The position numbers were made by a program, and so were the translations under genes. Below, one piece after another: positions 22,391 to 63,461 of a DNA stretch of 64,000 nt. Positions within the stretch are counted from its first letter, which is position 1, and every line of letters begins with the position of its first letter. The notes under the pieces are model-generated. The model had not been told where the DNA came from. It searched no databases and saw only the letters and a list, made by a program, of their open reading frames with translations. This DNA comes from Frigoriglobus tundricola (GTDB lineage Bacteria > Planctomycetota > Planctomycetia > Gemmatales > Gemmataceae), in assembly GCF_013128195.2 (NCBI RefSeq), contig NZ_CP053452.2, positions 2,356,001-2,420,000 on the forward strand, read 5' to 3'.

Positions 22391-22780
22391 TTACCTTTTC
22401 TTGGTCTCTCGAAACTGGGGCGCCGCGACGAGCGTGAAGAGGACGACCTCCTCGCCGGTCATGGTGCTGATGTCGTGGTGCATGCTCAACACCTTGACGC
22501 CCGTGGCCTCCAGGACCATCGCTTCCATGACCGGTCGCGCCAACTCGATGAGCTGCGTCCGGACCTGTTTGAGCAGGTCCCGCCCCTTCTCGGCGGGGAG
22601 CGTCTTGACCAGTTGTTGTTCGCCGTCGGTCAGGACGCCGTGGAGGCGGACCACGAGGAAATCTCCGATCAGATGGGCGTGAACGTTCTTGGGACCCCGG
22701 CCTATGTACTTCTGCTCGACGAGGGTCATGCCCACGCAGACGGCGGCTTCGATTTCTCCCAGTGTCTTCATGGTCTTCAT
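22391..22780 (-). CDS. DUF2294/MpsC-like protein A
   Basis: The start at 22780 (MKTMKTLGEIEAAV) fits the family and follows GAGAG. The 129-residue protein contains GRGPKNVHAHLIGDFLVVRL, VLTDGEQQLVKTLPAEKGRD, and DISTMTGEEVVLFTL, all typical of DUF2294. That family is now linked to MpsC of the MpsABC membrane-potential and bicarbonate system. No MpsA or MpsB gene is in the window, so that role cannot be assumed here. It is divergent from a second family member at 23096. Confidence 0.8.
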   Translation of the reverse strand: MKTMKTLGEIEAAVCVGMTLVEQKYIGRGPKNVHAHLIGDFLVVRLHGVLTDGEQQLVKTLPAEKGRDLLKQVRTQLIELARPVMEAMVLEATGVKVLSMHHDISTMTGEEVVLFTLVAAPQFRETKKR

Positions 22781-22946
22781 GCTGCTCTCGCGCGTGCTTC
22801 GTAACCTGATGGGTTGTCCGCACGAGAAGAGGCCAGCAAGGCCGAACGGGGCCATCCGAGTGATGGTACGGAAACTTACTGTGTTTTCTTCTCTTTTCGC
22901 TTGCTTTGCGCGGCCTGATCATTAGGATTTGCATGAGTAGAAGATG

Positions 22947-23052
22947 TCGGAAGACTAACTAACGAGGAACCCGCACAAAGTGGGGGCCTCTTTAGGTGAG
23001 TAAGCCGGCGTGATCGAATGCCCCAGGGTGTTCGGTCACGCCGGTTTTTTTT
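22947..23052 (+). promoter_or_regulatory. structured leader of DUF2294 gene, copy 1
   Basis: The leader starts GTCGGAAGACTAACT, carries a small CCCGCAC/GTGGGG hairpin and ends in a strong stem, CCGGCGTGATCGAA (23005-23018) with TTCGGTCACGCCGG (23031-23044), followed by eight T residues. It looks like an intrinsic terminator or attenuator placed 43 bases before the start of the DUF2294 gene. A homologous leader precedes the next DUF2294 gene. Confidence 0.6.
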
Positions 23053-23095
23053 CGCCCTTGTGGACCGGACCATCGCCGGGACGGAGGGTATCGAG

Positions 23096-23512
23096 ATGGA
23101 TAAGCCCAAGCCGACCGTAGCCGAGCAGATCGCTCAAGCGGCCATCGCGTTCGAGCAGCGGCGCACGGGCAACCATGTGCCCAAGGCGGTCACCGTGGTC
23201 CTGAGCGAGGGCACCCTTGTGATCACGCTGCACGAAGCCCTGTCGCCGGCCGAACGGGACATGGCCAAAACTCCGGCGGGGGCCGCTCAGATGCAAGAGT
23301 TTCACCGCCAGCTGTTCGCCACCTCCTCCGACACGCTGCGTCAAGAGATCAAACGGATCACCGGGATGGACGTGCGCGAGGCGACGGCGGAAATCGAGCC
23401 GGCCAGCGGGGCCGTCGTGCAGGCGTTCACGACCGGCACCGTGGTGCAGGTCTTCTTGCTCGCCGGAAACGCCCCGACACAAGCGTGGAGCGGGGACGCT
23501 CCGGGAAAGTAG
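23096..23512 (+). CDS. DUF2294/MpsC-like protein B
   Basis: The 138-residue protein contains FEQRRTGNHVPKAVTVVLSE, then TLVITLHEALSPAERDMAKT and IKRITGMDVREATAEIEP, the DUF2294 pattern. The start ATG 23096 follows GGAGGG. It is about as long as other members and has a hydrophobic C-terminal strand region. Together with the paralogues at 22391, 23822 and 62958 it shows local expansion of the family. The function is inferred only as membrane-energetics or stress related. Confidence 0.8.
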   Translation: MDKPKPTVAEQIAQAAIAFEQRRTGNHVPKAVTVVLSEGTLVITLHEALSPAERDMAKTPAGAAQMQEFHRQLFATSSDTLRQEIKRITGMDVREATAEIEPASGAVVQAFTTGTVVQVFLLAGNAPTQAWSGDAPGK

Positions 23513-23672
23513 CCGCGGTCACGCTTTGGAGTGTCCCAAGAAACGGTCCCAACGAATCGTCGGTCACAGGGAGTGATTGCCTTCGCCCAGCCTGCGATTT
23601 CAGCAGGCAGCGGAAAACAGGATGTAATCATCCGGTTATTGTCTCGAAGGCGCGGGACTTGCTTGAATAATT
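23513..23672. other. spacer between DUF2294 genes
   Basis: The gap from 23513 to 23821 totals 309 bases; its right half is the structured leader described next. In this left half I see no gene or clear terminator. Confidence 0.4.
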
Positions 23673-23783
23673 TGATGTTGTCGGATGGCTAACTTAAGGG
23701 CAACCCGGTCGGACCGGGGGGCTCGTGAGGCGAGCAAGCCGGCGTGGTCGAATGCCAACGGGTGTTCGGTTGCGCCGGCTTTT
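23673..23783 (+). promoter_or_regulatory. structured leader of DUF2294 gene, copy 2
   Basis: This leader matches the one at 22947-23052: GTCGGATGGCTAACT, a CCCGGTC/GACCGGG hairpin, then GCCGGCGTGGTCGAA (23738-23752) pairing with TTCGGTTGCGCCGGC (23765-23779) and a T4 run. Base changes relative to copy 1 preserve pairing through G-T pairs and compensating changes, which supports an RNA structure. The gene starts 38 bases later. Confidence 0.6.
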
Positions 23784-23821
23784 GTCGTTTCGAGGCCGCG
23801 TGAACGCCCCGGAGGGAACCA

Positions 23822-24265
23822 ATGGATCTGTCCCAACGGACCGTCGGCCAGAGGATCGCCCGGCTGGTCCGCGATTTCGAGCAACGGCACACACAGCACG
23901 GGCGCGAATGGTGGGCCGTCTTCCTCAACGAGGAGACGATCGTAATCGCGCTGCACGGGTCGTTGTCGAAAGCGGAATGCACATCGATGGGAAGTTGCGT
24001 TCAAGTTGCGCAGCACTTGCGGCGGCTGTTCGCCGACACCGCCCTGGTTCGCTCGATCAAGAGTGCCTCCGGGATGGTCGTGCGCGACACCATCGTGGAG
24101 ATAGCGCCCGCGACCGGCGGTGTAGTGCTGCTCCTCACAACGGACACGGCGGGTACCGAGTTCCCGCCCGCGACCGGCCGACCGGCTCGGAGGCCGGGAC
24201 GGGTCCGGCCCGAAGGCGGCTCTCGCCGCGCCACCAAGACAACCGGATGTGGCATCCGGGGATGA
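23822..24265 (+). CDS. DUF2294/MpsC-like protein C
   Basis: The 147-residue protein has FEQRHTQHGREWWAVFLNEE, then TIVIALHGSLSKAE and MVVRDTIVEIAPATGGVVLL, again DUF2294. The last 35 residues are basic, Arg-rich and probably disordered. It lies 30 bases upstream of a BON-domain gene, and the same gene pair recurs at 62958-64000. The start follows GGAGGG. Confidence 0.8.
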   Translation: MDLSQRTVGQRIARLVRDFEQRHTQHGREWWAVFLNEETIVIALHGSLSKAECTSMGSCVQVAQHLRRLFADTALVRSIKSASGMVVRDTIVEIAPATGGVVLLLTTDTAGTEFPPATGRPARRPGRVRPEGGSRRATKTTGCGIRG

Positions 24266-24295: not shown

Positions 24296-24949
24296 ATGAA
24301 GACCGACACGCAGTTGCAGAAGGACGTCATGGACGAGATCAAGTGGGAGCCGAGCACCACGGCGGCCCAGGTCGGGGTGACGGCGAAGGACGGGGTGGTG
24401 ACGCTGACCGGTGTGGTCGCGACCTACGCCGAGAAGTGGGCCGTCGAACGGGCCGCGCAGCGCGTGGACGGCGTCAAGGGCCTCGCCGAGGAGATCACGA
24501 TCACGCCGTACGGCGAACACGTCAAGAGCGACACGGAGATCGCGGCGGCGGCCGTCACCGCCCTCAAGTGGCACGTCTGGGTGCCGAACGCCATCCAGGC
24601 GACCGTGGCCCAGGGGTGGGTCACGCTCAAGGGCACAGCGGACTGGGAGTACCAGCGGACCGCCGCCCGCGACGCGGTGTGCTTCATGCCCGGTGTGAAG
24701 GGGGTGTCGAACGACATCACCATCAAGCCGACGGCGAAGCCGGCGGGCGTCAAGGACCAGATCGAGAAGGCGTTCGTGCGGAGCGCCGAACTCGACGCCG
24801 GGACGGTGAAGGTGGCGGCCGACGGCGGGGCCGTGACGCTGTCCGGCAGCGTCCGGTCGTGGAACGAGAAGACCCAGGCCGGTTCGGCGGCGTGGAACGC
24901 CCCCGGCGTCAACAGCGTGACGAACGACCTCGCCGTCTCGTACACGTGA
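24296..24949 (+). CDS. triple BON-domain protein (OsmY-like)
   Basis: Three BON domains fill the 217 residues (about 1-70, 79-149 and 153-217). Each shows the VTLTGVV or VTLKGTA strand, an AERAAxxVxGVKG-like helix and a final valine-rich strand. BON domains bind phospholipid or bridge envelope components, and OsmY-type proteins respond to osmotic stress. No signal peptide is visible, so it is probably cytoplasmic or membrane-associated here. AGGAG precedes the ATG. A close copy lies at 63458. Confidence 0.9.
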   Translation: MKTDTQLQKDVMDEIKWEPSTTAAQVGVTAKDGVVTLTGVVATYAEKWAVERAAQRVDGVKGLAEEITITPYGEHVKSDTEIAAAAVTALKWHVWVPNAIQATVAQGWVTLKGTADWEYQRTAARDAVCFMPGVKGVSNDITIKPTAKPAGVKDQIEKAFVRSAELDAGTVKVAADGGAVTLSGSVRSWNEKTQAGSAAWNAPGVNSVTNDLAVSYT

Positions 24950-24957
24950 CCGCATCG

Positions 24958-24982
24958 GCCCGGCGGCTCTCGTTGCCGGGCT
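24958..24982 (+). terminator. hairpin after BON gene
   Basis: GCCCGGC and GCCGGGC form a seven-base stem with a ten-base loop just after the BON gene stop. No U tract follows, so termination is only suggested. Confidence 0.35.
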
Positions 24983-25015
24983 TCCCACAAACCCCTTACG
25001 CCAGGAGTCCGAGTG

Positions 25016-25264
25016 ATGTCCGAGTCCAACAAACAGGCCGCACCGGTCGCCACCATGCGCGTCATCGAACTGGTCGGAGAGTCGAAGGAGAGCTGGGAGG
25101 ACGCCGCCCAGCGGTTGGTGAAGCGGGAGTCGGCGAAGCACAAGAACATCACCGGGCTGGACGTGCTCCGCAGTACCGCCGTCGTCCGGGAGGGCAAGAT
25201 CGTGGAGTACCGCATCGACGCCAAGATGGCCTACGCGATCGAACCCGACCGGGGCGAAGAGTAA
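25016..25264 (+). CDS. dodecin family protein
   Basis: The 82-residue protein contains IELVGESKESWEDAAQRLVK, followed by KHKNITGLDVLRSTAVV and GKIVEYRIDAKMAYAIE, the beta-alpha-beta-beta layout of dodecins. Dodecins assemble into hollow dodecamers that store flavin and buffer its free level. The ATG at 25016 follows AGGAG; a GTG directly upstream is less likely. Position in a stress cluster fits its protective role. Confidence 0.85.
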   Translation: MSESNKQAAPVATMRVIELVGESKESWEDAAQRLVKRESAKHKNITGLDVLRSTAVVREGKIVEYRIDAKMAYAIEPDRGEE

Positions 25265-25385
25265 CCGGCGCCACCAAACGTCCGCGACGTTCCGCCCCAT
25301 TTGGTGCGGGACGTGTTGTCAGGGCGGGAGCCGTTGGCGACCGCCCCGGAGTCCGAACCCGATCCGTCTCATTCAGGAGCCAGTT

Positions 25386-25649
25386 ATGACGAAGACACCC
25401 GCGACGACGCACGACGGCAAAGTGGTCAGCGTGGCCGGCGACAAGCTCACGACGACGTGCAGCCAGGGCAAAGAGCACTGCCACACGATGGCCAAGGACG
25501 CGAAGGTGACCTGCGACGGGAAGGCCAGCAAGGCCGCGGACCTGAAGGCCGGCACGGACGTCCACGTGACCTGCCATAAGGACGACAAGACCGTGGCGAC
25601 GGCCGTCGAGTCCGGCAAACACATCCCGGCCGCGGGCCACAAGGCGTAG
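25386..25649 (+). CDS. small conserved hypothetical protein
   Basis: The 87-residue protein starts THDGKVVSVAGDKLTTTCSQ and continues with KEHCHTMAKDAKVTCDGK and KAGTDVHVTCHKDDKTV. It looks like a small all-beta domain; the regularly placed Cys and His residues may bind metal. AGGAG precedes the ATG. Similar short proteins occur in planctomycete stress clusters, but I know no function. A nine-base stem-loop follows the gene. Confidence 0.7.
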   Translation: MTKTPATTHDGKVVSVAGDKLTTTCSQGKEHCHTMAKDAKVTCDGKASKAADLKAGTDVHVTCHKDDKTVATAVESGKHIPAAGHKA

Positions 25650-25662
25650 TTGTTTTCCGGTG

Positions 25663-25684
25663 TCGGGCGGCTCCGGCCGCCCGA
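25663..25684 (+). terminator. nine-base stem-loop terminator
   Basis: TCGGGCGGC pairs perfectly with GCCGCCCGA across a TCCG loop, 13 bases after the preceding stop codon. It lacks a long U tract but is a strong barrier hairpin. Confidence 0.5.
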
Positions 25685-25736
25685 TGCCAATCGCCCGACC
25701 CGATGACGGTTCGATGAAACACACGAGGAGACACCG

Positions 25737-26162
25737 ATGAGTGCGAAGATCGACCAGTTTTGCGACCGACTCCGGGACGGCCTCGACGCCGTGGAAACTC
25801 GGCTCCAGTCCGTCCAGGCGAACGTGGTCGCCCTCCCCGGGAAGGCCGAGCACGTGTTGCAAACCGAACTCGATGCGGCCCGTCGCAAGGTCGATGGCCA
25901 GATCGTGCGGCTCGAGAAGGCCAAGGACGGCGTCAAGGCCTGGGCCGCGGCGAAGGTGGCCGAAACCCGGGAGGCGATCGGCGACTGGAAGGCGAAGCGG
26001 GAGACCCAGAAACTGAAGGCCCGTTCGGACCGGGCCGAGGCGTACGCGGCGGACGCGCTCTTCTTCGCGGCGGCCGCGGTGGACGAGGCCGAAGCGGCGA
26101 TCCTGGAGGCCGCCGTCGCCCGCCTCGACGCCGACGCGGCCCAACCGGTCCGCACCGCGTAG
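25737..26162 (+). CDS. coiled-coil hypothetical protein, 141 aa
   Basis: The whole 141-residue chain is predicted helical, with heptad-like spacing in QTELDAARRKVDGQIVRLEK and in the segment around KLKARSDRAEAYAADALFFA. Ala, Glu, Lys and Arg dominate. It has no signal peptide or membrane span. The ATG follows CGAGGAG. Its position among stress genes suggests a structural or LEA-like protective role, an inference only. Confidence 0.7.
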   Translation: MSAKIDQFCDRLRDGLDAVETRLQSVQANVVALPGKAEHVLQTELDAARRKVDGQIVRLEKAKDGVKAWAAAKVAETREAIGDWKAKRETQKLKARSDRAEAYAADALFFAAAAVDEAEAAILEAAVARLDADAAQPVRTA

Positions 26163-26234
26163 CGTTCACCGGACCGTATCGCGGTCCTGAACCCCGTTCG
26201 CTCCTTCCCCCTCGCCCCTTGCAAAGAACTCACC

Positions 26235-26744
26235 ATGCGAAAGTATCTCAGCGGCCTGGCCCTGCTGCTGGCCGGGTTCGCGTCCGACGCGAGCGCACAG
26301 TACCAGACCGTCATCACTCCGCCCCAGGGCGGTGTGCCCATCGTTTCCGGCGGGTGGTACACGGCCGGCACCGTGTTCGCCAACGGGATGGCGTTCCCGC
26401 CCGGGGCGCTCATTCAAGAAGCCGGCTCGGTCACACAGGCCAGCGACTACGCCCCGACGGTCGCCGACTACCCGTCGTTCGGCTCAACCTACTACGGCGG
26501 TGTCTACCCCCAGAACTCTTACTACGGCCCCGGCTACTCGTCGTTCGGGCTGGGCTACAACTTCGGGACTGGGGGCTACGGCTACAACCGCGGCTACACG
26601 GGCTACGGCCTCGGCACCTACCCGGGCTACAGCGGTTCCAGCAGTTTTAGGGCGGGTTACGGTCGTGCGTCTGGCGGCAACCGCGGGTACGGCGGGAACC
26701 GTGGGTACAGCGGGAACCGCGGATCCGGCGGGCGTCGTCGCTAG
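26235..26744 (+). CDS. secreted Gly/Tyr-rich protein
   Basis: A signal peptide (MRKYLSGLALLLAGFASDAS, cleavage likely after SAQ or ASA) precedes a 148-residue mature region. The second half is built of short Gly-Tyr-Asn-Ser repeats such as GYNFGTGGYGYNRGYTGYG and a run of GNRGYGGNRGY units. Such low-complexity exported proteins can assemble into extracellular matrix or coats. The exact role is unknown. It is followed by a perfect hairpin. Confidence 0.75.
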   Translation: MRKYLSGLALLLAGFASDASAQYQTVITPPQGGVPIVSGGWYTAGTVFANGMAFPPGALIQEAGSVTQASDYAPTVADYPSFGSTYYGGVYPQNSYYGPGYSSFGLGYNFGTGGYGYNRGYTGYGLGTYPGYSGSSSFRAGYGRASGGNRGYGGNRGYSGNRGSGGRRR

Positions 26745-26769
26745 GGCGCCACGGATTCTCACTGCCTCT

Positions 26770-26792
26770 CGAAAGCCCCGCCGGGGCTTTCG
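26770..26792 (+). terminator. perfect ten-base hairpin
   Basis: CGAAAGCCCC and GGGGCTTTCG pair perfectly around a GCC loop between the Gly/Tyr-rich gene and dps. This is the best intrinsic-terminator-like hairpin in this block, though only a short T run follows. Confidence 0.6.
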
Positions 26793-26823
26793 TCCCGCGT
26801 CTCACACTCTGGAGGAAACACCC

Positions 26824-27396
26824 ATGAAGGAATCAGCACTCACCAAGGTCCCTCGTGCGGACGCACCGCCGCCCTACGAGGTGCAAGCGTTCGGTACACT
26901 CACGGACGTGCCCATCGCCCTCGCCGAGGCCGCGCGGCGGGAGGGGGTGGACAACCTGAACCAACTCCTGGCCGACACGATCACCCTCCGCGACCTGTAC
27001 CGGAAGCACCACTGGCAGGCGTCCGGGCCGACGTTTTACATGCTCCATCTGCTCTTCGACAAGCACTACCGCGAGCAGGACGAGTTGGTGGACGCCGTCG
27101 CCGAGCGGGTCATGCAACTCGGCGGCGTCAGCGTGGCGATGGGCGCCGACGTGGCAGAGATGACCCTCGTCCCCAGTCCGCCGAAGGGCCGCGAGCGAAC
27201 GGCCGAGCAGTTGGCCCGCCTTCTGTTCGCGCACGAGGTGATTCTGGAAGAGGCCCGCGCGATGGCCCGGTACGCTGAGCGGGACGGGGACGTCGGCACC
27301 GCCGACCTGATCGTCAGCAAGATCATCCGCACGAACGAAACACAAGTCTGGTTCGTGGCCGAGCACCGCACCGCCGCCCCGGCGGAAGTCGAGTGA
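26824..27396 (+). CDS. Dps-like ferritin family protein
   Basis: The 190-residue protein shows the four-helix ferritin-like layout with the Dps signature RKHHWQASGPTFYMLHLLFD followed by HYREQDELVDAVAERVMQLG, which holds the intersubunit ferroxidase ligands. Dps proteins oxidise and store iron and can coat DNA during starvation and oxidative stress. The start follows GGAGG. The N-terminal 40 residues exceed the usual Dps core and are Pro-rich, possibly a DNA-binding tail. Confidence 0.88.
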   Translation: MKESALTKVPRADAPPPYEVQAFGTLTDVPIALAEAARREGVDNLNQLLADTITLRDLYRKHHWQASGPTFYMLHLLFDKHYREQDELVDAVAERVMQLGGVSVAMGADVAEMTLVPSPPKGRERTAEQLARLLFAHEVILEEARAMARYAERDGDVGTADLIVSKIIRTNETQVWFVAEHRTAAPAEVE

Positions 27397-27535
27397 ACCC
27401 GTACCGTCCACATGGACGGCGCGAAGCTCTCCGGCTCGGGCTTTTCACGACGAGCACGATCGCAACCGCAGACGGGCGAGCGCCCGCTGCGGACCGCACG
27501 GACCTGGGCACACAACACGGACAAATAGGAACACG

Positions 27536-27751
27536 ATGTCGGCCTCCACGCTTCGGACGCTAAGTAACGTCTGCTTGATCGCCGGTTTCGCCTCGATCCT
27601 CGCGGCCGTCCTCGTCTGGTTTCTTTCGAAGGAGCCGGATCTCGCACACGGTGAACGGTTCGGAATCTTCGTCGGCCTGTGGGCACCAACCTTTTTCATT
27701 CTGTCCGACCGGATCGACCGGTACGTCGCGGCGCGGCGGGTAGCGGCGTGA
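27536..27751 (+). CDS. small two-helix membrane protein
   Basis: The 71-residue product has two membrane spans, roughly LSNVCLIAGFASILAAVLVW (residues 9-28) and GIFVGLWAPTFFILS (about 43-57). The ends are charged. Small membrane proteins of this form are common in planctomycetes. The ribosome-binding site is weak, so the exact start is uncertain. Confidence 0.6.
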   Translation: MSASTLRTLSNVCLIAGFASILAAVLVWFLSKEPDLAHGERFGIFVGLWAPTFFILSDRIDRYVAARRVAA

Positions 27752-27840
27752 GCCGGAGCGGCCTTCCGTCTTCAACTGCCTCACGCCAGACATCACGACG
27801 ATTCGCAGCGAGCGGCGTTTACCGGAGCGGGAGAAACACC

Positions 27841-28617
27841 ATGCTGAGCCCAACTGAGTGCCGATGCGACCGGGATCGGGGGTCGGCTGACCACGGCCGA
27901 TCCGACCGAGAACTCGTCGCAGCCAACCGGCGCATGCGCGAATTTCTGGCCCTGCTGGGACACGAGTTGGGCAACCCCCTGGCCGCGATGCGCTACGCCC
28001 TGTGCGTACTCAACTTGCAGGGCGACGATGCCGTCACCCGGGACCGGACCTGGGGTGTCCTGGACCGACAGTTGCAGTTCATCGCCTGTCTGGTCAATGA
28101 CCTCATGGACGTTTCCCGGATCGAACTGGGCAAGATCGAGTTGCACATCCAGCCACTGAACCTGGCACAGGCCCTGGTCCGCGCGGCCGAGAGCGTCCGG
28201 GGCCCGATCGAGAAGCGCGGCCACCAACTCGAAGTGGCGCTCCCGCCGGACTCGGTGAGTCTGGACGCGGACCCCGTTCGCCTGGAACAGGTGCTGACCA
28301 ACCTCCTGAACAACGCCTCCAAGTACACGGACGCCGGAGGACGAATCTGGCTGACGGCGGAGGTCCAGGGCGGCGACGTGGTGTTTCACGTCCGGGACAG
28401 CGGTATCGGCATCGCCCCGGAGATGCTGCCGCACGTTTTCGATCCCTTCTGGCAGGCCGAGCCGACGCTCGATCCCGCGCAGTGCGGGTTCGGAATCGGC
28501 CTGGCACTGGTACGGAAGTTGGCCGAACTGCACGGCGGGAGCGCGGGCGCGTACAGCGAGGGCCTGAACCGCGGCAGCGAGTTCGTCGTGCGCTTGCCGT
28601 GCACGCGGAGGGGTTGA
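27841..28617 (+). CDS. sensor histidine kinase lacking an input domain
   Basis: The 258-residue kinase starts at 27841 and has the H-box LLGHELGNPLAAM with the phosphorylated His41. The HATPase domain follows: N-box LTNLLNNASKYTD, G1 box DSGIGIAPEML, G2 box GFGIGLALVRKL. No transmembrane or PAS segment precedes the dimerisation domain, and no response regulator is adjacent. It probably receives its signal through a partner protein. A role in controlling the surrounding stress genes is inferred from position. Confidence 0.85.
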   Translation: MLSPTECRCDRDRGSADHGRSDRELVAANRRMREFLALLGHELGNPLAAMRYALCVLNLQGDDAVTRDRTWGVLDRQLQFIACLVNDLMDVSRIELGKIELHIQPLNLAQALVRAAESVRGPIEKRGHQLEVALPPDSVSLDADPVRLEQVLTNLLNNASKYTDAGGRIWLTAEVQGGDVVFHVRDSGIGIAPEMLPHVFDPFWQAEPTLDPAQCGFGIGLALVRKLAELHGGSAGAYSEGLNRGSEFVVRLPCTRRG

Positions 28618-28714
28618 ACGGCGTTGCCGGTGAACGGGCCGCTCCGGGCCGTCGACCCGCCACCGCAGCCCGTCGAAGTCGAAATTTACAGATACCATCC
28701 GAGAGGTGAACACG

Positions 28715-29446
28715 ATGTCGGTACCCGTCTCGTTCGAACAGCCGCCTCACATGAGCGGCGGCCACCGACACACTTACGACGAGATCTTCCGCCACCCCAC
28801 GGCCCACAACCTGGAGTGGCACGACGTGCGGTCGCTCCTCGACGCCCTGGCGGACGTGACCGAGAAGCACGACGGCGCCCTTGAAGTAACGCGGAACGGG
28901 CGGGTGCTCATACTGCACCCCCCGAAACACAAGGACGCGCCGGTCGAAATGGTGCTGGAGATTCGCCGCTTCTTGGAGCGGCCAGGCGCGGGGGCGGTTC
29001 CGACGGCCGTCATACCGGGCCTGGACCTGCTCGTCGTCATCGACCACCACGAGGCGAAAGTCTACCGCACTGAGGCGCCCGGTTCCGCCCCGCAGAACCT
29101 CGTTCCGTACGACCCTCACGGCTTCCGTCGGCACCTCCACTCGCAAACCGAGGAGACGGACGGCAAACGGAAGCCGGAGCGGAAAAGTTACTACGAAACC
29201 GTCGCCGCGACACTTCGCGGTGCCGACCGGATCCTCATTTTCGGCAGCGGCACCGGTGGCAGTAGCGCCATGGACCAACTGGTGGCTGACCTGAAGGCCC
29301 ATCACCCGGACGTGGCGGCCAGGGTGGTTGCCTCGGTCGTCGTGGACGCCCACCACACGACCGAACCGCAACTCCTGGCCGAGGCTCGCGCCGTCTTCGC
29401 CCGACCCGACGGCCAGAATCCGCCCGCCACGGAGGGCGCATCGTGA
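28715..29446 (+). CDS. conserved hypothetical protein, 243 aa
   Basis: The first ATG that gives a natural start is 28715. The protein has an N-terminal His-rich stretch (MSGGHRHTYDEIFRHPTAHN), a beta-strand-rich middle (GRVLILHPPKHKDAPVEMVL) and a C-terminal Rossmann-like segment RILIFGSGTGGSSAMDQLVA. The end resembles eRF1-like or host-attachment protein domains that are found beside stress genes. No enzyme assignment is possible. It overlaps the TspO gene by four bases, which indicates co-translation. Confidence 0.7.
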   Translation: MSVPVSFEQPPHMSGGHRHTYDEIFRHPTAHNLEWHDVRSLLDALADVTEKHDGALEVTRNGRVLILHPPKHKDAPVEMVLEIRRFLERPGAGAVPTAVIPGLDLLVVIDHHEAKVYRTEAPGSAPQNLVPYDPHGFRRHLHSQTEETDGKRKPERKSYYETVAATLRGADRILIFGSGTGGSSAMDQLVADLKAHHPDVAARVVASVVVDAHHTTEPQLLAEARAVFARPDGQNPPATEGAS

Positions 29447-29838
29447 CGTGGCACGACTGGTACGACGCGCTGGCGAAACCGACTTGGACTCCGGCCCCGG
29501 CGACGATCTCGCTCATCTGGAGCCTGCTCTATCCGGGCATCCTGTTGAGTTTCGGCTTCGTATTCCTCCAGAGCGCACGGGGCCGTCTGCCGCGACGCGT
29601 CTGGCTCCCGTTCGCCCTGAATCTCGCGGCCAACCTAGCGTTTATGCCACTGTTCGCCGGGTTACGCGACGTCCACTTGGCCACCGCGGACATCCTCCTC
29701 GTGTGGGCGACGTTGATCTGGTGCGCGGTCGCCGTCTGGCCGCACCACCGCTGGGTCGCGGTCGTCCAACTGCCGTACTTCGTCTGGGTGTCCACCGCGG
29801 GTGCCCTTCAACTGTCGATCGCCCGGATGAATTGGTAG
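29443..29838 (+). CDS. TspO/MBR family membrane protein
   Basis: The GTG start overlaps the upstream stop. The 131-residue protein has the TspO features: WYDALAKPTWTPAP at the N-terminus and about four to five membrane helices, including LPFALNLAANLAFMPLFAGL and LLVWATLIWCAVAVWP. Its C-terminus reads LPYFVWVSTAGALQLSIARM. TspO proteins bind tetrapyrroles and respond to oxygen and stress. Length is slightly short of the usual 150-160. Confidence 0.85.
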   Translation: MTWHDWYDALAKPTWTPAPATISLIWSLLYPGILLSFGFVFLQSARGRLPRRVWLPFALNLAANLAFMPLFAGLRDVHLATADILLVWATLIWCAVAVWPHHRWVAVVQLPYFVWVSTAGALQLSIARMNW

Positions 29839-29906
29839 CCCTTGATACCCCCCCGGACCACTTCGGTTCGCGGCGTCCCTTCCGCTGAGTGCAAAGGCAA
29901 TTTCCC

Positions 29907-30437
29907 ATGAAGCACCTGAACTCTGTCGTCGCGGTCTTCGACTCACACGACAAGGCCGAGGCGGCCGTCCGCACCCTTCAGCAGGGCGGTTTCGACATGA
30001 AGAACCTGTCGATCGTGGGCAAGGGCTTCCACACGGAGGAGCACGTCGTCGGGTATTACAACACCGGCGACCGGATGCTGTACTGGGGCAAGCAGGGGGC
30101 GTTCTGGGGCGGGTTCTGGGGGCTGCTGTTCGGGTCCGCGTTCTTCTGGGTTCCGGCCGTCGGCCCGCTCCTGGTCGCCGGCCCGCTGGTGGTCTGGATC
30201 GTCGCCGCTCTCGAAGGGGCCGCCGTGGTGGGCGGGCTGAGCGCCCTCGGTGGCGCGCTGGCCAGCATCGGGATTCCGGAGAACAGCATCGTGCAATACG
30301 AGACCGAGGTGAAGAACGGCAAACTGCTCCTGGTCGCCCATGGAACGGCCGACGAGGTGGAGCGGGCCCGGGGCGTGCTTGAGCGATCCAAGGCGAACGC
30401 GACAGTTCATGCCGAACCGGCCCTTGTGAGCGCGTAA
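29907..30437 (+). CDS. YflT/GspB-like general stress membrane protein
   Basis: The 176-residue protein has an N-terminal VVAVFDSHDKAEAAVRTLQQ domain like the general stress protein 17M/YflT fold. A central glycine-rich hydrophobic region (about residues 55-120) contains one or two membrane hairpins, and a C-terminal LLLVAHGTADEVERARGVLE follows. Its composition is that of DUF1269-like membrane proteins in planctomycetes. The ATG at 29907 is preferred over a GTG or other start at 29889. Its role in stress is inferred from family and context. Confidence 0.7.
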   Translation: MKHLNSVVAVFDSHDKAEAAVRTLQQGGFDMKNLSIVGKGFHTEEHVVGYYNTGDRMLYWGKQGAFWGGFWGLLFGSAFFWVPAVGPLLVAGPLVVWIVAALEGAAVVGGLSALGGALASIGIPENSIVQYETEVKNGKLLLVAHGTADEVERARGVLERSKANATVHAEPALVSA

Positions 30438-62479: not shown

Positions 62480-62957
62480 GGGCACGACCTTGCGATGAGG
62501 TGAAGCCGGCTCCTTCATCCGGCCGACCCTTCTTGCCTTGCATCAACTCCCGTTCCGCTTCCAGCCGGAATGGGTGCCGTCCCGTCGGCGCATCCGCGCG
62601 TCCTCCCACTTCCGGTGGCCACAGAACCGAATGTCTCTCAACTGCCGACCGGTGTGAAGCTGGGGTTTCGTATTCGACGTGTCCGCGGTCTGGAAGCACA
62701 TATTCCCTGATGTTCCCGCTGTAGCCCACGACGGCCCCCTTATTGCCACACGTTGGGTCACCGGCTGACTTGAACCTGCCAAGCCAACCTCCTCACACAT
62801 GTGAGGGCGGGCCGCTCCTTGCGTCGCCTTCGGCAGATGCGGGCACATCGACACGACTGTGATCACACAGAGTGCTGCTGATGCGGAGTGATCCCGTCCG
62901 GGTCACGCGGACGAGGTGTGACCGTGGCGGGCGGATCGGGAATCAAGGCGACAAACC
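62480..62957. other. intergenic, nothing firmly seen
   Basis: This 478-base gap lies before the second DUF2294-BON pair. It lacks the CTAACT/hairpin leader found before the DUF2294 genes at 23 kb. Open frames on both strands have no ribosome-binding site or family likeness. Confidence 0.4.
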
Positions 62958-63461
62958 ATGGACCGGTCCCGGGAAACCATCGGCAAGACGATCGCCCGGG
63001 CGGTTCGCGCGTTCGAGACGCGGCGAACCAAACACGGCCGCAAATGGGTAACGGTGTTCTTGAACGAGGACACCGTTGTGATCGCGCTGCACGGCTCCTT
63101 AACGGCCGCAGAAAAAGCTCTGGTGCGCAGTCCCGCCGGCACCGACCGGGTTCGGGAGCACCACCGGCAGTTGTTCACCGACGCCTCCGCGCCCCTGCGT
63201 CGGACGCTCAAGGGCATCACCGGGATGGGGGTGCGCGATACGACCGCGGAAATCGAGCCCTCGACCAACAGCGTGGTGCAGTTCTTCACGACGGACACCG
63301 CGGGGACCGATTTTCCCAGCGTTCTCGCTACGCCGCCCGGGTCTGTGCCGGGACGTGCCCGCTCCGCCGCCGCAAAGGTCGCGCCCGCTGTGAGGCCAAG
63401 ACAACCGGACGTGTCATCCGGGGACGATCGCCCGATTCGCACCACGAGGAATTCACAATGA
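62958..63461 (+). CDS. DUF2294/MpsC-like protein D
   Basis: The 167-residue protein has FETRRTKHGRKWVTVFLNED, then TVVIALHGSLTAAEKALVRS and LKGITGMGVRDTTAEIEPST, closest to the protein at 23822. Compared with that copy, the equivalent stop (TGA) reads CGA, so the frame runs 12 codons further and overlaps the start of the BON gene by four bases. The extra C-terminal residues are basic. The gene pair is a duplicate of 23822-24949. Confidence 0.8.
   Translation: MDRSRETIGKTIARAVRAFETRRTKHGRKWVTVFLNEDTVVIALHGSLTAAEKALVRSPAGTDRVREHHRQLFTDASAPLRRTLKGITGMGVRDTTAEIEPSTNSVVQFFTTDTAGTDFPSVLATPPGSVPGRARSAAAKVAPAVRPRQPDVSSGDDRPIRTTRNSQ

Follow-up and report, generated by a model that had tools for sequence, protein, structure and literature searches.

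The window, i.e., the whole 64,000-nt stretch of Frigoriglobus tundricola DNA that was analysed, carries two tandem copies of a leader RNA, both on the plus strand and 734 nt apart, having an MpsC/DUF2294 gene (PF10057) behind the first copy and a diverged relative behind the second, while another DUF2294 gene runs divergently next to the first. The features of this region are as follows, R2 being a covariance model of 20 sequences:

22391-22771, minus strand: gene of the B-type DUF2294 protein (126 aa), transcribed divergently from leader 1; candidate partner acting in trans
22901-22928, plus strand: sigma-70-type promoter of leader 1, with TTGCTT (22901-22906), a 16-nt spacer and TAGGAT (22923-22928), score 16
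22943-23052, plus strand: leader RNA copy 1, its limits being the conserved GTCGG region and the U-run (R2 107 bits, E 6.9e-28)
22947-22950, plus strand: copy 1 P0 strand UCGG, potentially pairing with CCGG 23005-23008 within the terminator 5' arm, one-sided changes only
22954-23001, plus strand: copy 1 irregular hairpin P1-P4, having conserved internal loops with A.G mismatches
23002-23052, plus strand: copy 1 intrinsic terminator, 21-bp stem (23002-23022/23027-23047) and U-run (23045-23052)
23096-23512, plus strand: A-type MpsC/DUF2294 gene following leader 1, with its start codon 43 nt past the U-run
23677-23784, plus strand: leader RNA copy 2 (R2 103.3 bits, E 8.9e-27)
Parts of copy 2, plus strand: P0 23681-23684 with 23739-23742, P1-P4 hairpin 23688-23735, terminator 23736-23783
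23822-24265, plus strand: diverged MpsC/DUF2294-like gene behind leader 2

The two copies were recovered by a repeat search as one 121-nt direct repeat (22929-23049 and 23663-23783, 75% identity), and they fold into the same structure, with -60 kcal/mol (z -8.05) for copy 1 and -57 kcal/mol (z -4.70) for copy 2, no shuffled sequence folding equally well in either case. An earlier note on this DNA had described two leaders here, sharing a CTAACT block, a small hairpin and a long stem followed by a T run, and had suggested that they control two DUF2294 genes by attenuation. Both leaders lie where it had placed them, and the block, the small hairpin and the stem (21 bp) were confirmed, as was the claim that the differences between the copies preserve the pairing, e.g., an A-U pair in P1 replaced by G-C. 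The T run is present in both copies, although in copy 2 it is short (TTTT then G, 23780-23783); before this copy, the best promoter site scores only 12, compared with the cut-off of 14. The first downstream gene clearly belongs to the family, its protein passing PF10057 with 60.8 bits against a cut-off of 23 (E 1.5e-16), whereas the second is marginal, with 22.1 bits, just under that cut-off; it also has 138.6 bits to the alignment A5, which itself includes that protein. The divergent gene, which the earlier note did not mention, passes PF10057 as ORF 22391-22855 (minus strand) with 104.7 bits against 23. Both types of MpsC/DUF2294 protein, the presumably leader-controlled A-type and the divergent B-type, thus match the same family.

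Structure and covariation of the leader RNA

The leaders have a common layout, comprising a sigma-70-type promoter, an optional 5' hairpin, the irregular P1-P4, an intrinsic terminator of 18-21 bp with its U-run, a Shine-Dalgarno (SD) sequence and the gene, and their consensus is GUCGGAnGACUanaUnAagnGCAnccCgg-loop-ccGGgnGGCnnGUunanGAGUAAGCCGacGuGgungaannCc-loop-ggGuguucnncCaCGuCGGcUUUUUU. In the curated alignment A4 (20 rows, aligned by MAFFT), 94.5% of the cells are paired and compensatory change is found in 20 of the 33 pairs, with 0 of 500 shuffles as high. The 110 matches of alignment A8, found by the covariance model and not by the DNA pattern (one of them antisense), have 93.1% of cells paired and 31 of 33 pairs compensatory (again 0 of 500 shuffles as high), and A7, composed mostly of pattern loci, is in agreement with 28 of 33, both A7 and A8 having been fitted to the model and hence being biased towards the structure. 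Loss of pairing in homologues, which the earlier note had named as evidence against its reading, was not seen; the homologues keep their pairing by compensatory changes, in line with the conserved cis-acting RNA that it had suggested.

The purine loops between the helices are mostly A.G or G.A, including A14.G99 (124 of 132 rows) and G16.A97 (127 of 132), the places of these two being partly fixed by the search pattern, as well as A31.G81 (119 of 132). A kink-turn in P2, considered from the alignment, was rejected, ordinary pairs being compatible with the pair types at the columns concerned. At six columns of the U-run, U is present in 95-99% of the rows. The leaders end in a sense-strand stem directly followed by this U-run, upstream of the gene, which is the general arrangement by which an intrinsic-terminator attenuator is recognized. 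At the level of sequence analysis, a conserved leader RNA with a predicted terminator is established.

The 5' UCGG is complementary to CCGA/CCGG at the base of the terminator 5' arm, a pairing here called P0. As 106 of the 143 distinct leaders were collected with a DNA pattern that fixes parts of GTYGGANRACT, TNA and GAGTAAGCCG, conservation at these bases is biased, and the P0 statistics were therefore taken from the model-found A8 rows. Among the 109 rows of A8 minus its antisense row, the core pairs are kept in 99, 104, 105 and 108, and the outer two are poorly kept (49 and 67 of 109). All departures from the core are one-sided, with no compensatory (two-sided) changes, and so they speak for conservation and are not a covariation proof of P0. 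In the predicted folds of transcripts cut after P0', at least four P0 pairs form in 89 of 109, compared with 1-6 of 109 when the 5' segment is shuffled (ten shufflings); in the full-length RNA, P0 is found in 0 of 109 and the terminator folds instead. Because P0 shares the CCGA of the terminator 5' arm, the putative antiterminator and the terminator are predicted to be mutually exclusive. With the terminator prevailing in the complete RNA, P0 must depend on kinetics or on some help to form. It occupies the U-run-proximal part of the stem, so a P0 that is held should block termination.

Distribution, promoters and downstream genes

The RNA was found across Planctomycetota, and its distribution is patchy, as judged from the window's genus, where strong matches are limited to the window's own genome (1 of 19). 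The model R1, made from the two window copies, recovered only these two as good copies in their own 9.86 Mb genome, plus weak and antisense matches, and gave further members in related genera, with matches in 13 of 95 genomes at E <=0.1 (weak and antisense matches counted). In the family of the window, 12 of 95 genomes have sense matches of R2 at E 1e-6 or better, as do 46 of 150 in a second family and 39 of 198 in a different class; an evenly drawn sample of the phylum had 16 of 392 at E <=0.01, weak matches counted. A single genome (G761) has up to 25 model matches, per-genome counts of this kind possibly including antisense ones. With a stricter DNA pattern, 84,980 named species genomes yielded 90 stretches. 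The 80 pattern loci listed of these 90 were used; 79 of them have planctomycete titles, and the remaining one is in all probability a planctomycete contig that was mis-binned. This locus, L166 (titled Acidimicrobiales), was rejected as a non-planctomycete member, being 92.8-97.4% identical over ~7.4 kb to the planctomycete locus L119 and thus most likely mis-binned.

Tandem leaders, each with its own terminator, also occur about 10 nt apart in L256 (496-611 and 621-734) and L257 (430-542 and 554-667), and 149 nt apart on one strand in L126 (6656-6769 and 6919-7035). Distant, AT-rich tandem versions with a partly broken P0 were observed in other families of the phylum (L207, 1127-1245 and 1257-1374; L208, 1551-1669 and 1769-1888).

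A TTGCTT-N16-TATAAT-like promoter (score cut-off 14) lies upstream of 82 of 126 leaders, compared with 33 of 630 shuffled sequences. The 86 promoter-bearing leaders include 14 with a short 5' tail and 72 with a longer one, and 37 of the 72 fold better than shuffled sequences (z < -1.5); the longer tails may contain an optional, sequence-variable extra hairpin.

A downstream ORF, picked by homology or SD score on the same strand only, was available for 142 of the 143 leaders. Thirty-six of these ORFs form one cluster, of which 34 match PF10057, making DUF2294/MpsC the commonest single target (34/142), and in 32 of the 36 the start codon lies 32-82 nt past the motif. Seven of the 106 non-MpsC ORFs, being duplicates or having uncertain starts, were set aside, and the other 99 were compared with Pfam, giving DUF3309 (5), transglycosylase-associated, GlsB-like (5), KaiC (4), sigma-70 region 2 (4), sigma-70 region 4 (4), OmpA (3), collagen-like (3) and CsbD (3); inspection by eye added BON, PilZ and histidine-kinase-like ORFs, and baeRF was confirmed in one case. 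Judged by these families, the genes behind the leaders look like a general-stress set. The leader hits sit directly before gene starts, contrary to the scatter that the earlier note had held against its own reading. Its tie between the leader and DUF2294 genes stands as far as the commonest target goes, although about three quarters of the leaders precede other genes, mostly stress-type. An attenuator dedicated to DUF2294 alone was rejected, since just 34 of 142 downstream ORFs are PF10057 and MpsC is absent from the 25 commonest families among the 99 others.

The gene csrA was found downstream of the leader within 3 kb on the same strand in 15 loci, compared with 1 upstream, typically right behind mpsC; it is present in 13 of the 31 MpsC loci with enough sequence, PF02599 having been confirmed for one. 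The order leader-mpsC-csrA recurs in L025, L019, L105, L110, L116 and L156. In Limnoglobus roseus (L013, G051:C1:7903596-7904549), the MpsC gene behind the leader appears split over frames and is probably decaying.

Probable attenuation and a candidate protein partner

The leaders are quite probably transcription attenuators, a reading drawn from sequence. Attenuation, as the earlier note had proposed, is the best-fitting mechanism, given the leaders' ends in stem and U-run and the competing P0 of truncated transcripts, whereas a control specific to DUF2294 is too narrow. Transcription would begin at the sigma-70-type promoter just 5' of the leader, and the nascent RNA would make the long irregular hairpin P1-P4, its base closed by P0 (UCGG with CCGA/CCGG). 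Without a persisting P0, the polymerase would complete the 18-21 bp terminator and stop at the U-run, which we infer to be the default OFF state; a stabilised P0-P4 would block the portion of the terminator next to the U-run and let the gene be read, giving a presumed ON state. The genes so controlled would form a general-stress-like regulon in which DUF2294/MpsC occurs most often. What stabilises or destabilises the hairpin is most likely a dedicated protein, and the candidate for it is the B-type DUF2294, whose gene runs divergently next to many leaders.

A separate search for MpsC on both strands around the leaders gave 84 genes, 35 of them directly downstream on the same strand and within 250 nt, 28 upstream on the opposite strand and 21 elsewhere. 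The divergent genes and four tandem ones form a compact clade (A9, 32 sequences, 77% mean column identity). On its profile these B-type proteins score at least 190 bits and other DUF2294 proteins at most 182, the 190-bit cut having been chosen after this gap was visible. The B-type gene of the window has counterparts that co-occur with the RNA in three sampled clades: B-type matches (>=190 bits) are present in 8 of 95, 28 of 150 and 32 of 198 genomes, and all 68 of these genomes are RNA-positive, i.e., 68 of 97 RNA-positive genomes have a B-type gene, compared with 0 of 346 RNA-negative ones. These totals use the 12 genomes of the first family that are RNA-positive at E 1e-6; the Fisher comparison of the co-distribution used the 10 with sense matches at E 1e-15 or better, and its values are without phylogenetic correction. 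Within the genera g9, g24 and g1 (that of the window), the B-type is limited to RNA-bearing genomes, a pattern poorly explained by common descent alone. The class of genome G205 has 46 B-type genes, of which 30 lie divergently at most 600 nt from a leader and 5 others are in tandem, running towards one. Genome G467 has leaders at three distant places, of which one has a strong B-type gene, and this speaks for a functional link and not just a physical one. Other loci with the divergent clade beside leaders include L006, L014, L018, L029 and L033.

There is no strong B-type match in 29 of the 97 RNA-positive genomes, including G759 (14 RNA matches) and G721 (11). The B-type proteins are nearly neutral (net charge -6 to +1). 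Their AlphaFold2 model is confident (pLDDT 91.9); a fold search with it against the PDB gave a best Foldseek E of 0.022 and no VIA-align Z >=8, and a sequence search of the PDB found no relatives at E up to 1. Given this charge and the lack of a convincing PDB fold, RNA binding is without structural support, and we assign these proteins no function from their fold. In the first part of the A-type model (pLDDT 80.7), the structural elements follow one another in a similar order. That the B-type protein acts directly on the leaders is a tentative assignment, slightly more doubtful than probable.

The main rival to a protein partner is an orphan riboswitch, in which P0-P4 would be the aptamer for a small signal or stress metabolite and the B-type DUF2294 would make, degrade or sense a related molecule without touching the RNA. 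Many copies of the same RNA before unrelated genes of one genome, tandem copies with separate terminators, conserved internal loops and an aptamer-like domain overlapping the terminator would all suit such an RNA. Its conserved domain, however, is a single irregular hairpin, modelled without multiway junction or pseudoknot, and a close co-distribution with one protein would be more usual for a protein partner; the riboswitch is possible, on the unlikely side. The compact, conserved RNA of ~100 nt, bounded by a promoter and a strong terminator, could also be a stand-alone small RNA gene, the downstream genes being expressed by leaky read-through or from their own promoters. This is quite unlikely, considering the 35 MpsC genes less than 250 nt downstream on the same strand with starts clustering at 32-82 nt, the predicted exclusivity of P0 and terminator, and the variable region upstream of GTCGG that may carry an extra hairpin.

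CsrA could control the leaders by way of a GGA that is nearly invariant where P0 meets P1 (98 of 109 rows), the csrA of leader-mpsC-csrA operons closing a feedback loop, as its position behind leaders (15 loci versus 1, 13 of 31 MpsC loci) might suggest. The CsrA binding motif is ANGGA, whereas the site here is mostly UCGGA (82 of 109), its GG is paired in P0 and there is no constant second site; in addition, csrA is present in 95 of 95 genomes of the family, RNA-positive or not, which weakens CsrA as a specific partner and leaves this reading improbable. A mobile or repetitive DNA element (a small palindromic repeat) with no regulatory role would account for the patchy distribution, the restriction of strong matches to one genome of 19 in the genus and the copy clusters. 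It is hardly credible in view of the pre-gene position, the covariation of RNA pairs including G-U, the conserved promoter and U-run, and the 0 matches to the DNA pattern in the viral contigs scanned.

The attenuation reading has parallels among known systems. In RAT antiterminators (BglG/SacY/LicT-type), a hairpin with an internal loop overlaps the terminator 5' arm, there are several targets per genome, and the regulator, which in BglG/SacY systems carries the CAT RNA-binding domain (PF03123), is often nearby. The planctomycete hairpin likewise has conserved internal loops, overlaps the terminator 5' arm, has multiple targets and often adjoins its candidate regulator. It departs from RAT hairpins in being roughly double their length and having four internal loops, in its associated protein, a DUF2294 clade and not a CAT-RNA-binding/PRD protein, and in its targets, which are stress-type genes instead of sugar operons. 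The c-di-GMP (GEMM) riboswitches also occur in many copies per genome before diverse genes, can have a terminator as expression platform and may be arranged in tandem. The planctomycete leader resembles them in being multi-copy before diverse genes, terminator-ended and sometimes tandem, but it differs in matching no Rfam riboswitch, in its single irregular hairpin and in the specific protein that co-occurs with it.

At the gathering score of Rfam 15, the window gives only a tRNA and 17 homologous loci give 0 matches, and permissive scans of copies 1, 2 and L017 gave sub-threshold matches only. Searches of openly accessible literature, mainly at the level of titles and abstracts, on planctomycete RNA motifs, terminator RNAs, riboswitch candidates, MpsC and antitermination gave no description of the leader RNA, and one on DUF2294 gave a single unrelated paper. 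The leader RNA is apparently an undescribed structured class outside Rfam 15. The main caveat on its novelty is a possible identity with the Rhodopirellula-1 motif, which is listed in the motif table of Weinberg et al. 2010 (PMC2864571) as a candidate cis-regulatory RNA from Planctomycetes, with no Rfam accession in the table, and which is listed there for Proteobacteria too. The 80 leader loci listed, in contrast, comprise 79 that are planctomycete by title and one that is very probably mis-binned. The name MpsC (PF10057) derives from the MpsABC bicarbonate transport locus of S. aureus, whereas in planctomycetes DUF2294 is associated with a regulatory RNA and with stress genes.

The whole picture, i.e., a planctomycete-wide cis-acting attenuator, a stress regulon and the B-type DUF2294 as the likely factor, has in our estimate an even chance of being right. 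A phylum-specific RNA-protein system, in which the B-type DUF2294 would act in trans on up to ~twenty leaders per genome and govern a stress regulon by antitermination, with its own DUF2294 relatives among the main targets, is plausible at somewhat less than an even chance; it would give the B-type the first regulatory role for the DUF2294 family. To our knowledge, global expression control in Planctomycetota is poorly known, and the leader RNA seems to govern there an expression programme that is global and probably related to stress. For the DUF2294/MpsC family, partnership with a specific RNA is a concrete candidate role that can be tested, and the switching of planctomycete stress genes becomes directly testable with a small reporter.

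Behind the leaders, the window contains a stress-type island (24296-30437) with BON, dodecin, ferritin/Dps-like, TspO and YflT-like genes. Within it, an ORF without Pfam match (28706-29446), before which no leader was found, resembles by eye the leader-following genes in L128 (2115-2831) and L144. A further MpsC/DUF2294 gene, without a leader upstream, lies at 62957-63400, and a GP88-like gene (PF17338; 21535-22236, plus strand) adjoins the leader region.
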